From NCBI GenBank assembly GCA_034370385.1, contig JAXMKZ010000030.1:1-64000 (forward strand): a stretch of 64,000 nt of DNA, given 5' to 3'. The notes below the pieces were generated by a model. The model was not told the DNA's origin, ran no database searches, and saw only the letters and a program-made list of their open reading frames with translations. This stretch comes from Coriobacteriia bacterium. Its GTDB lineage: Bacteria; Actinomycetota; Coriobacteriia; Anaerosomatales; PHET01. Numbering within the stretch: the first letter of the stretch is position 1; every line of letters starts with the position of its first letter. This document shows, one piece after another, positions 57,032-61,990 of this stretch. The translations under genes were made by a program, and so were the position numbers.

Positions 57032-58276
57032 GTGACCGCTGCGCCGCAGGGGGAGCGTTCGGTCGTGGTCATGAAGTTCGGCGGGACCTCGGTTTCGACA
57101 TCAGAGGGCAGACTGGCCGTTTCGCGACGCGTTTGTGCAGCTCTTGCGCTCGGACGTAGACCCGTCGTCGTTGTAAGCGCCATGGGCCGCAAGGGTGACC
57201 CGTACGCCACCGATACCCTGCTCTCCCTCATAGCGGACCTGCCGACCGACCTACGAGAACGTGACCTGTTGACCAGCGTCGGAGAGGTCATCAGCGCCGT
57301 CGTCGTCGCACATGAGCTCCGTTCGACCGGCATCGATGCCATCGCCCTGACCGGGCCCGAGGCAGGAATACTCACCGACGGGATTCATGACCGCGCATCC
57401 ATCACCGAGCTGCACACCGGTCCGATCGAATCACTGCTGTCACGCGGCGCCGTGCCCGTCGTCTGCGGTTTCCAGGGCATGAGCGCGTCGGGAGCGATCA
57501 CCACCCTCGGTCGCGGTGGAAGCGACACCACCGCATGCGCCTTGGGGGTGGCTCTGGGCGCCGAGGAGGTCGAGATCTACACTGACGTCGACGGCGTGAT
57601 GACCGCCGACCCCCGCACCTGCCAGGCTGCGACCGTCCTTGAAGTGATCCGCGCCGACGAACTGTTCCAGATGGCGCGCGCCGGGAGTCGGGTCGTGCAC
57701 ACACCTGCCGCCGAGATGGCCCTGGCTAGCGGGCTGGCGGTACGCGTCCGCAGTACCTACTCAGATCACCCCGGCACCCGTGTGTCGGATATCGGCGCCC
57801 TACGACCAGATGTCGTCGCAACCGCCGTCACGTGCGCCACCGATATCGTACGCCTGCGCGTGGATCTGCTCGCCGATGAGGGCTCCGATGCCAACATGCG
57901 AGCCCAGGCTCGCGTGTACCGGGCGCTTGCGGATGCCAGCGTCTCGCTCGATATGTTCACACCCGTCGGGCACGCACTCGTGTTCACTGTCTCGGCGGAA
58001 GCGCTCGGACGGGCCAAACGGGCCGTTGACGCCTTGAGACTGCCCTGTGAACTCACGCCCGACCTCGCTAAGGTGACAGTGGTCGGAGCGGGTATGCATG
58101 GAGTCCCCGGTGTCGTGGCCCGCGCGATCGAGTGCCTGTCGAACGCCGGAGTCAGTGTGCTCCAGACCGCCGACTCACACACCACGATCTCCGTGCTGAT
58201 TCCCGGGGGAGACGCGCGCACTGCGGTGAGTGCCCTTCACGACGGATTCAACTTGAGCACCGACGCGACGACCTAG
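57032..58276 (+). CDS. lysC: aspartate kinase
   Basis: The 414-residue enzyme has VMKFGGTSV at the N-terminus, the TLGRGGSDTTAC catalytic block, YTDVDGVMTADPR, and two C-terminal ACT domains (about residues 265-410) that usually bind lysine and/or threonine for feedback control. It begins the aspartate family pathway. The start is GTG 57032. Its stop codon TAG lies on the palindrome CTAG shared with the stop of the opposite-strand regulator. Confidence 0.95.
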   Translation: MTAAPQGERSVVVMKFGGTSVSTSEGRLAVSRRVCAALALGRRPVVVVSAMGRKGDPYATDTLLSLIADLPTDLRERDLLTSVGEVISAVVVAHELRSTGIDAIALTGPEAGILTDGIHDRASITELHTGPIESLLSRGAVPVVCGFQGMSASGAITTLGRGGSDTTACALGVALGAEEVEIYTDVDGVMTADPRTCQAATVLEVIRADELFQMARAGSRVVHTPAAEMALASGLAVRVRSTYSDHPGTRVSDIGALRPDVVATAVTCATDIVRLRVDLLADEGSDANMRAQARVYRALADASVSLDMFTPVGHALVFTVSAEALGRAKRAVDALRLPCELTPDLAKVTVVGAGMHGVPGVVARAIECLSNAGVSVLQTADSHTTISVLIPGGDARTAVSALHDGFNLSTDATT

Positions 58277-58701
58277 CCAGCAGCACCCTGTGACAGCAGT
58301 TCCGCGACGAGCTCTCGCAGCTCCCCGTGGTCGAACGGCTTCTCGATGTAGGCGTCAGCGCCGTGGGACCGGGCTTGTTCGTGGTCCGCTGCCGCGACTG
58401 CAGTGGTCAGCATCAGGATCCTGTAGCCGGGGCCGTCGGCGGACAATCGCAAACGCTCCAGCACAGCGAACCCGTCGAGCTTGGGCATCACCACGTCAAG
58501 GACGATCACATCCGGGCAGAACTCCTCCACGGCGTTAAGCGCGTCCTCGCCGTCAACGGCCTCGCGCACTTCACAGTCGAGCGACTTGATCGACGCCTGA
58601 ATCAGCATTCGAATCAATCGGTCGTCGTCGACTACGAGCACTCTGCGGCCCCCCACGAGCACCCCCCCGGTTGGTGAATCGACACAAACCCTATTCGCCA
58701 T
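58273..58701 (-). CDS. single-domain response regulator, divergent from the hybrid kinase
   Basis: This is the only clear minus-strand gene. The 142-residue protein has a short N-terminal leader, then a receiver domain: VLVVDDDR (Asp25-27), phosphoacceptor Asp69 in VIVLDVVMP, LTTA, and the Lys of EKPF. There is no output domain. ATG at 58701 is preferred to longer starts up to 58839, because the minus strand has AGGAGG at 58717-58712, 10 bases upstream. It is convergent with lysC (4-base overlap) and divergent from the hybrid kinase, which is the likely partner. Confidence 0.88.
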   Translation of the reverse strand: MANRVCVDSPTGGVLVGGRRVLVVDDDRLIRMLIQASIKSLDCEVREAVDGEDALNAVEEFCPDVIVLDVVMPKLDGFAVLERLRLSADGPGYRILMLTTAVAAADHEQARSHGADAYIEKPFDHGELRELVAELLSQGAAG

Positions 58702-58804: not shown

Positions 58805-61156
58805 GTGACTGAGGGTGATCGCGAACTGCGTCGCTGCACTCACCTGCGAACACTGATCGCACATGCGTCTGAGGGCTTCGTCGTCATTGATGGCACGGGC
58901 AACATCCGCGTCTTGAGCGAGGCAGCGGTCGATGTCTTCGACATCGCGCGAGACGCCGCCGTGGGAGCACCGATCGAGACGCTGGGCTGCACTCAGCTGC
59001 AGGCGGCGGTTCGCAGCGCTCTGATTGACGGGCCTGACGCCCGCACACTTCGAATCACCCATCGAGGACGCCATCTCGGATGCACGGTCACGGCATACAG
59101 CGATGATCATGAATCCGGTGTGGCCGTGGTGGTCAGGGATGACAGTGAGCTGTTCGAACAGCAAGAGCGTCTCGAGGCTATCCTGTCCAGTGTGGGGGAT
59201 GGCCTCATCGTATTCACGCCCGATGACTGTGTGACCTTCGTCAATCCTGCTGCAGTCGAACTGCTCGGGGAGAGCCTTCTCGATGCAGTGGGCAACCAAG
59301 CGCCTCTGTCGGGGCTGCTCGGCCTCGAGCCGGCGGACGCTTCGCAGTGCATGCCGTGCTGGCAGACCCGCGCATGCGGCGTGGTCGAATGCCCCCAGTA
59401 CGGAAGCGAAGACCTGCGCTGCTGGTTGAAACACGGCACCCCGGGGCCGGACGGTGAGGCCTTGAGTTTCAGAGACAAGCAAGAACGCTGTGTCGGCTGC
59501 GACATCCGGGCCGTGAACGGCCCTGCGCTTGGGGACCCGGGCGCTCAGGGCACCGTCGAGATCGAGATTGCCGAACCCGAACACCGCTTCTTGGAGGTAC
59601 GAACCAGCCCGGTGACCGACCGCGATGGGCACTACCTCGGGTGCATCTCGACGCTTCACGACGTGACCGCCACCCGTGAGATCGCCATCATGAAGAACGA
59701 GTTCGTCTCCATGGTCAGCCACGAGCTACGCACACCGCTCACCTCGATCAAGGGCTACGTCGATCTGATCGTCGACGGTGAAGCCGGCGAGATCAACGAC
59801 GTCCAGCGCGAGTTCTTGCAGATCGTGCAGGAGAACTCGGACCGCCTCGTCTCCCTGATAAACGATCTACTCGATATATCGCGCATCGAGTCTGGACGAG
59901 TCCACCTCAGGATCGAGCCCCTTGAGCCCATCGACATCATCAACGGGGTCATGGGTACGTTTCGCACCTACGCCGATCAATCAGGTATCACCCTCACGGC
60001 GCGGATTCCCTCCGACCTACCGCGTGTGGCGGTCGATGGCGACCGCATCGGACAGGTCCTGATGAACCTGACGAGCAACGCGATCAAGTACTCTCCCGGC
60101 GGCGGCGAGGTCACCCTAGGGGCCTCACACGCAGGCGACTTCGTTGAGTTCCGCGTGACCGACACCGGGCTGGGAATCTCTGAGGAGGACCAACGGCAGC
60201 TGTTCAACAAGTTCTTCCGAGTCGACTCGTCACTCACGCGAGAGATCGGAGGCACAGGACTCGGGCTGTCCATCTGCAAGAGTGTCGTCGAGCTTCACGG
60301 CGGTGCCGTCAGCGTCACGAGCGTGTTGGGCGAAGGGTCGACGTTTGGTTTCAGCGTGCCCATCGCTCCATCCGAGCTGATCCGCATGCCGGCCGTCGAG
60401 GGGCCGGTCAAGACGCACGGCGGTACCGTACTCGTGATCGACCGTGACCCTGAGATCGCGAGTCTGATCGAAACGTTCCTCATCAAGCGCGGCTACGACG
60501 TCATGAAGGCCCACACGGCACGCGAAGCGCTCGCGGCAGCGGCAGACACCAAGCCGTCATTGATCACCCTTGACGTCCTGCTTGACGATCACGACGGCTT
60601 CGACCTGCTCCAGCATCTGAAGGAGGATCCGGCCACAGCCGATGTGCCCGTAGTCGTACTCTCGATCGTCACCGACGAGGGCAAGAGCCTCCGGTTGGGT
60701 GCGGCGGACTATCTGGAGAAGCCCATCGACAAGTCCCGGCTCATCAAGCTCGTCGATGACTTGGTAGGTGCGAAGGCGTCGCCGGTGATCCTCGTGGTCG
60801 ACGACGACCGACACATCGCGGACTCCCTCGCGCACACCCTGAGGGCTCGTGGGTTCGCCGTGGCTCAGGCCTACAACGGGCAGGAGGCGATGCAGGCGGT
60901 TGAGGCCACGCCCCCCGATCTCATCCTTCTCGACTTGAAGATGCCGGTCATGGACGGTTACGAGGTCATTCAGTCGGTCAAGGGGAATGCGGAGACGCGC
61001 CACATCCCCATCGTGGTCATGACCGCGCACCGCATCGACCACGACAAGACCGACATCCTCAAGCTTGCCGCGGAACACGTGTCTAAGCCCTTCGAACCCG
61101 AGACGTTGGCGATGCGAGTGGCCGCCGTGCTCGGTGCAGATGAGGAGCTGGCATGA
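58805..61156 (+). CDS. cytosolic hybrid histidine kinase, PAS-PAS(Cys7)-HisKA-HATPase-REC-REC
   Basis: The 783-residue protein has no membrane segment. In order: PAS 1 (about 16-120); PAS 2 (about 126-290) interrupted by a cysteine module with Cys182, 185, 191, 196, 206, 229 and 232; HisKA with His306 (SHELRTP); an ATPase domain with N box NLTSNAIKYS, DTGLGIS and GGTGLGLS; REC1 with Asp590; REC2 with Asp710. The cysteines suggest a metal, Fe-S or redox centre in the sensor. GTG 58805 is chosen because AGGAAGG lies 8 bases before it; ATG 58700 and 58754 are in frame but have no ribosome site, and 58700 overlaps the divergent start. The stop overlaps the next regulator. Confidence 0.9.
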   Translation: MTEGDRELRRCTHLRTLIAHASEGFVVIDGTGNIRVLSEAAVDVFDIARDAAVGAPIETLGCTQLQAAVRSALIDGPDARTLRITHRGRHLGCTVTAYSDDHESGVAVVVRDDSELFEQQERLEAILSSVGDGLIVFTPDDCVTFVNPAAVELLGESLLDAVGNQAPLSGLLGLEPADASQCMPCWQTRACGVVECPQYGSEDLRCWLKHGTPGPDGEALSFRDKQERCVGCDIRAVNGPALGDPGAQGTVEIEIAEPEHRFLEVRTSPVTDRDGHYLGCISTLHDVTATREIAIMKNEFVSMVSHELRTPLTSIKGYVDLIVDGEAGEINDVQREFLQIVQENSDRLVSLINDLLDISRIESGRVHLRIEPLEPIDIINGVMGTFRTYADQSGITLTARIPSDLPRVAVDGDRIGQVLMNLTSNAIKYSPGGGEVTLGASHAGDFVEFRVTDTGLGISEEDQRQLFNKFFRVDSSLTREIGGTGLGLSICKSVVELHGGAVSVTSVLGEGSTFGFSVPIAPSELIRMPAVEGPVKTHGGTVLVIDRDPEIASLIETFLIKRGYDVMKAHTAREALAAAADTKPSLITLDVLLDDHDGFDLLQHLKEDPATADVPVVVLSIVTDEGKSLRLGAADYLEKPIDKSRLIKLVDDLVGAKASPVILVVDDDRHIADSLAHTLRARGFAVAQAYNGQEAMQAVEATPPDLILLDLKMPVMDGYEVIQSVKGNAETRHIPIVVMTAHRIDHDKTDILKLAAEHVSKPFEPETLAMRVAAVLGADEELA

Positions 61157-61521
61157 GCCTCATCCTCGTGGTAGATGACGAGCCGCATATTCGGCGGCTT
61201 GTTGCGTTTGCGCTCGAGAAGAGGGGGCACGAGGTTCTGGAAGCCAAGGACGGGCCTACCGGAATATCCCTTGCCACCGAGCGGCTCCCGGACGTGATTC
61301 TGATGGACGTGATGATGCCAGTGATGACCGGCCTTGAGGCAGTTGACCTGCTGAAGTCCGATTCTCGGACGGCCTCGATCCCGGTCGTCTTCTTGTCAGC
61401 TCGCAGCCAGGAGTACGAGCAGAACGAAGGACTCAGGGTCGGCGCGGTGAAGTACATCTGCAAACCATTCACGCCTAGCGTACTCGGACAGACCGTCGCT
61501 GACATCCTCAGCGACCGATAG
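61153..61521 (+). CDS. single-domain response regulator
   Basis: The 122-residue protein is a bare receiver domain: VVDDEP (Asp8/Asp9), phosphoacceptor Asp52 in VILMDVMMP, FLSA and CKPF. Lacking an output domain, it probably relays phosphate or acts by binding a protein. It is translationally coupled to the hybrid kinase by an ATGA overlap. Confidence 0.93.
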   Translation: MSLILVVDDEPHIRRLVAFALEKRGHEVLEAKDGPTGISLATERLPDVILMDVMMPVMTGLEAVDLLKSDSRTASIPVVFLSARSQEYEQNEGLRVGAVKYICKPFTPSVLGQTVADILSDR

Positions 61522-61537: not shown

Positions 61538-61990
61538 ATGCCGTACAAGATTCTTGCCGTGGACGATGAGCCGTCGATCGTGAGGCTCGTCACCGCAGCG
61601 CTGAGCGCCAAAGGCTACGAGGTGGTCAACGCCTTCAACGGCGAGGAGGCACTCGACAAGGTGGCGCTGGAGCATCCGGACCTGATCGTGTGCGACATCA
61701 TGATGCCGCGTATGGACGGACGCGAAGTGCAACGGCGACTGGCGGCGGACGCCAAGACACGTGACATCCCGTTCATCTTCCTGTCTGCCATCGGAGATCT
61801 GGACCAGCAGCTCCACACGCTCGAGGAGGGCGGTGCGGAGTACCTCACGAAACCATTCAAGCCGTCGGAGCTCACGGACTATGTCGCTGCACTTCTTGAC
61901 CCTGCTCGCAAGGACGAGCTCGCCCGCATGAGGCAGCAGCACGTGGGTCGCCTGCGTGCCATGACGTCGATCATGCACCGTAAGACGTGA
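61538..61990 (+). CDS. response regulator with short basic C-terminal helix
   Basis: The 150-residue protein has a receiver domain (AVDDEP; Asp53 in LIVCDIMMP; FLSA; TKPF) followed by about 30 residues rich in Arg, Met and Gln (ARMRQQHVGRLRAM), probably a helix. No DNA-binding domain is seen. It lies 16 bases after the previous regulator, so it belongs to the same transcript. The tail could be a docking or oligomerisation element. Confidence 0.92.
   Translation: MPYKILAVDDEPSIVRLVTAALSAKGYEVVNAFNGEEALDKVALEHPDLIVCDIMMPRMDGREVQRRLAADAKTRDIPFIFLSAIGDLDQQLHTLEEGGAEYLTKPFKPSELTDYVAALLDPARKDELARMRQQHVGRLRAMTSIMHRKT

Follow-up and report, generated by a model that had tools for sequence, protein, structure and literature searches.

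Two cytoplasmic PAS domains of histidine kinases offer the closest described parallels to the protein reported here. NreB of staphylococci is an oxygen sensor in which four cysteines of the PAS domain itself hold a [4Fe-4S] cluster, as established by experiment (PMC4601167), and the zinc site in the cytoplasmic PAS domain of WalK requires the PAS residue His271 (PMC6624279). These examples show that a cytoplasmic kinase PAS domain can hold a [4Fe-4S] cluster or zinc, albeit by means other than those considered below. Our subject is a kinase encoded in a 64,000-nucleotide stretch of Coriobacteriia DNA (contig JAXMKZ010000030.1), hereafter the window. Like NreB, it is a cytoplasmic histidine kinase with cysteines tied to a PAS domain (PMC4601167). 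However, whereas the cysteines of NreB lie within the PAS domain, those of the window kinase belong to an added module and their cluster is only putative; four cluster cysteines of the NreB type were not found in the core of its second PAS domain, PAS2. With WalK it shares a PAS domain that adjoins HisKA, and among the PAS structures that Foldseek retrieved with our whole model, a WalK model was the top match. WalK differs in binding zinc through His271, and a cysteine-rich insert is not described there (PMC6624279).

A hybrid kinase with an interrupted PAS domain

The presence of HisKA with its H-box, HATPase_c and receiver domains identifies the protein as a hybrid histidine kinase (Table 1). 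Translation was taken from the GTG at 58805; a start at the in-frame ATG at 58700 would lengthen the protein by 35 residues. The first-pass annotation had regarded the kinase as cytosolic, and this holds, since no 19-residue stretch is strongly hydrophobic (maximum Kyte-Doolittle mean 1.44). It had also described a cysteine-rich segment as interrupting PAS2. Indeed, Pfam splits PAS2 on either side of this segment, the N-terminal match running to about 59284 and the C-terminal one spanning 59573-59680.

Table 1. Coordinates of the kinase, its domains and the partner genes in the window.
Feature	Position	Strand	Basis or remark
Soluble hybrid histidine kinase, 783 aa	58805..61156	+	PAS1-PAS2[two-CW insert]-HisKA-HATPase_c-REC-REC
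PAS2 N-terminal part, strands A and B then helices	59165..59329	+	Pfam PAS_8/PAS; AF2 model
Insert, short two-CW module	59348..59503	+	Profile match, alignment conservation
PAS2 C-terminal part, strands G, H, I	59552..59668	+	Pfam PAS_4 75-110/110; AF2
HisKA	59690..59896	+	H-box SHELRTPL at 59717-59740
HATPase_c	60035..60364	+	
Receiver domain 1	60422..60769	+	
Receiver domain 2	60785..61135	+	
RR1, stand-alone receiver, conserved partner	61153..61521	+	Overlaps kinase stop codon
RR2, stand-alone receiver, conserved partner	61538..61990	+	

In the confident AF2 model of PAS2 with its insert (pLDDT 84, pTM 0.78), the insert sits between the helices that follow strand B and strand G, and both halves form one PAS domain. 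Strands A and B and strands G to I are thus present on the two sides of the insert, as found by Pfam, AF2 and Foldseek alike. The strands of the C-terminal part occupy positions 137-142, 148-158 and 164-173 in model numbering, and a single helix joins this part to HisKA. Modelled alone, again with confidence (pLDDT 87, pTM 0.68), the module is a small cysteine-rich domain of about 60 residues with short helices only, for which Foldseek returned no similar fold (best E 7.9).

The order of the kinase, RR1 and RR2 genes is retained in orthologous loci with and without the insert. A further stand-alone receiver gene (58273-58701, minus strand) adjoins the kinase start in divergent orientation and, unlike RR1 and RR2, was not found next to orthologous kinases. 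The neighbouring lysine-pathway genes lysC, dapB and dapA were rejected as a functional hint because their proximity to the kinase is not conserved.

Six conserved cysteines of a divergent two-CW domain

Seven cysteines and two CW pairs had been reported for the segment, and translation reproduces them exactly, the cysteines at residues 182, 185, 191, 196, 206, 229 and 232 (codons at 59348, 59357, 59375, 59390, 59420, 59489 and 59498) and the pairs at 185-186 and 206-207. The segment holds 7 of the 13 cysteines of the kinase. At least seven cysteines would fall by chance in one given 51-residue stretch with a probability of about 4e-6, and in any of all such stretches with about 3e-3. Conservation is a stronger test than such clustering by composition, and we therefore aligned 15 orthologous insert-bearing kinases, the window protein and 14 others. 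C185, C191, C196, C206, C229 and C232, together with W207, are invariant in all 15, while C182 is private to the window kinase, being shared by none of the other 14 carriers. The supposition that the cysteines are conserved in orthologues therefore stands for six of them and fails for C182. Outside the insert, PAS2 has only two cysteines: C142, absent from all 14 other carriers, and C280, present in seven.

The module thus has a core of six cysteines, and every carrier possesses at least seven. In most of them the seventh lies in a GTxC motif; in five (L115-L118 and L015) it is found four residues past the second CW cysteine (CWLRCGT). The window kinase has His210 at this +4 site (CWLKHGT), where its close relatives have cysteine, and it lacks the canonical GTxC cysteine, with T212-P213-G214 in its place; C182 is an unrelated cysteine that has arisen elsewhere in the segment. 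The GTxC cysteine is present in free-standing copies of the domain and in signalling proteins outside the family of the window kinase. The shifts of the seventh cysteine amount to a small number of events on the tree and are no more than suggestive.

The first-pass annotation mentioned similar CW-rich motifs in some sensory proteins, with a ligand that was not settled, and proposed a profile-HMM search of the segment. The segment alone matched the NCBIfam family two_CW_domain (NF045718) at 16.2 bits (E 0.01), below the curated cut-off of 35 bits. All 13 kinase modules in our alignment (A1) matched this profile, the best of them, from an orthologue in genome G007, scoring 41.2 bits as the sole module above the cut-off. 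In hhalign, the kinase modules aligned with free-standing two-CW proteins (A6) at 97.7% probability (E 2.5e-12) with their cysteines in register. The shared features include the six core cysteines in the same order, both CW motifs, the terminal CxxC and a lysine ahead of the last cysteine pair. Homology of the segment to the two-CW domain is therefore well supported at the level of sequence. We regard the window copy as a divergent homologue rather than as a member by the curated score, because it reaches only 16.2 bits but its orthologue 41.2; it is also without the GTxC cysteine. Compared with long-form two-CW proteins, the kinase module is about 20 residues shorter and has no LDGxNGGxNAGR glycine-rich loop.

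The two-CW domain is a named but uncharacterised family, of which the short kinase form with its altered seventh site is a variant. A literature search for 'two-CW' found no account of the domain. Searches of Pfam and PHROGs with the module gave no credible match, and sequence searches of the PDB gave no match with the long form and, with the module, nothing beyond chance hits on a ubiquitin ligase. A weak match to tetraheme cytochrome c3 was rejected as one of cysteine composition, for the segment has no CxxCH.

A removable insert, also present in diverse signalling proteins

When the window protein alone was used to scan for close relatives, none was found. The A1 profile detected 23 loci, and the proteins that host the module there are of unrelated types and belong to several phyla. 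Besides Coriobacteriia kinases, they comprise HAMP-PAS-GAF kinases (L081, L083, L084), CheW proteins (L075, L076), kinases in which the module follows HAMP or lies C-terminally (L086, L087, L090), a HisKA_2-type kinase (L091) and GGDEF diguanylate cyclases (L088, L089, L092-L094). The three HAMP-PAS-GAF kinases carry the module at the same PAS position as the window kinase; they differ from it in architecture and in having eight cysteines, at both the +4 and the GTxC sites. Ten columns are invariant over the 24 module sequences, D203, R205 and T212 among them. In the two CheW proteins (L075:4683-5378 and L076:4698-5387, from Desulfurivibrionaceae/Desulfobulbaceae MAGs) the module lies within the CheW domain, where it might feed a metal or redox signal into the chemotaxis coupling protein. 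A single open frame at L061:1081-1800 contains two tandem two-CW domains, the first of them degenerate. Genomes that bear the domain have up to eight copies, whereas at E 0.01 or better it was absent from 14 well-known control genomes; none of the plasmids searched carried the module.

Free-standing copies of 100-150 residues exist, and several (L164, L173, L174, L177, L178, and also L170, L172, L175, L176) head an apparent operon. The genes that follow, in several families of the same order, are often Nudix, HcyBio (PF01837), MetH-like and MetV-like; the Nudix and MetV names reflect our own reading of the sequences and are to be taken as presumptive. From this operon context, the domain may have a role connected with sulphur or redox. 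The genome of the window encodes an HcyBio protein (G000:C51:172044-173087), and a search for a free-standing two-CW protein in it gave no match above 12.5 bits. Enzymes of the HcyBio/COG1900 group insert sulphur in homocysteine; in Methanosarcina their partner is a small ferredoxin-containing protein (PMC12068725).

Within the kinase family itself, 38 orthologues without the insert keep PAS2 intact; judged from these comparisons, the module is a removable insert. In one of the insert-less orthologues (L028), the insertion site directly ahead of PAS2 strand G still reads 'EAARCGERT', whose cysteine may be left over from the first one of the module. A tree built from the kinase region implies at least seven changes in the state of the insert, six of which are made unavoidable by well supported branches. 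Near the base of this tree sit carriers that do not belong to the class (L147, L148), and if the insert is taken as ancestral, a hand count arrives at about eight losses. Ancestral presence followed by some eight losses is the probable history; because the outgroup L147 lies on a long branch, this direction is likely and no more than that.

A putative metal centre and its alternatives

The explanation that we favour, with modest confidence, is that the divergent two-CW insert of PAS2 forms a putative metal centre that tunes the kinase. The six invariant cysteines and His210, whose equivalent in relatives is cysteine, would most likely bind the centre. The Cys/His exchange at the +4 site is easier to reconcile with a metal ligand than with a disulphide, although it is seen in one sequence. 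An Fe-S cluster would be favoured over zinc in an apparently anaerobic cytosol: neither COX1 nor cytochrome bd was found in the 100%-complete genome of the window, as would be expected of an anaerobic cytosol in which an Fe-S centre could persist, and the host is a probable anaerobe. Counted by eye, terminal oxidases occur in about 4 of 14 insert carriers and in 6 of about 38 others, with no evident link to the presence of the insert. A change of the centre, in its redox state, assembly or loss, would act as the trigger. From there the signal would travel by way of PAS2 strands G to I and the linking helix into HisKA, and so set how phosphate flows to the receivers, two within the kinase and two encoded separately in the operon.

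Structural zinc binding or thiol chemistry would be equally compatible with invariant cysteines. Were the cysteines to hold one or two zinc ions for the fold only, the module would be a docking surface or spacer that senses nothing. The small, cysteine-rich make-up of a domain of some 60 residues with only short helices, the existence of free-standing copies and the presence of His210 would all agree with this, as exchange of cysteine for histidine is common in zinc sites. We nevertheless consider it unlikely, since the module recurs inside sensory domains and CheW, and the kinase has outlasted its repeated loss, which points to an optional input more than to a structural element.

Slightly less likely is a metal-free thiol switch, in which disulphides, persulphides or reaction with sulphide or electrophiles would report thiol or sulphur status. 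The invariant terminal CxxC (229/232) speaks for such a switch, as do the free-standing relatives that head apparent homocysteine/methionine operons with the sulphur-incorporating HcyBio; the position of the seventh cysteine, however, varies and is taken by histidine here, a poor fit to a fixed disulphide partner. That the insert of the window kinase is a functionless relic on its way out, as in the 38 orthologues without it, would explain the missing GTxC cysteine, the low profile score and the many losses in the family, but it is very improbable given that the six core cysteines, W207, D203, R205 and T212 were kept while most of the surrounding PAS2 diverged.

Beyond the window kinase and its preferred metal centre, the two-CW domain might be a general plug-in sensor of anaerobes, with Fe-S, another metal or sulphur as its input, that was inserted independently in PAS, CheW, GAF-like and HAMP-linked regions, signals the sulphur or redox state, and in its free-standing form serves homocysteine/methionine synthesis. 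We offer this wider proposal only tentatively. The domain is an optional part within several kinds of bacterial signalling protein, and orthologous kinases with and without the insert provide a natural experiment. At about 60 residues, with six invariant cysteines, the module is of a size that allows its ligand to be tested directly. If the metal or Fe-S centre proves true, it would supply a testable input for many signalling proteins of anaerobes.
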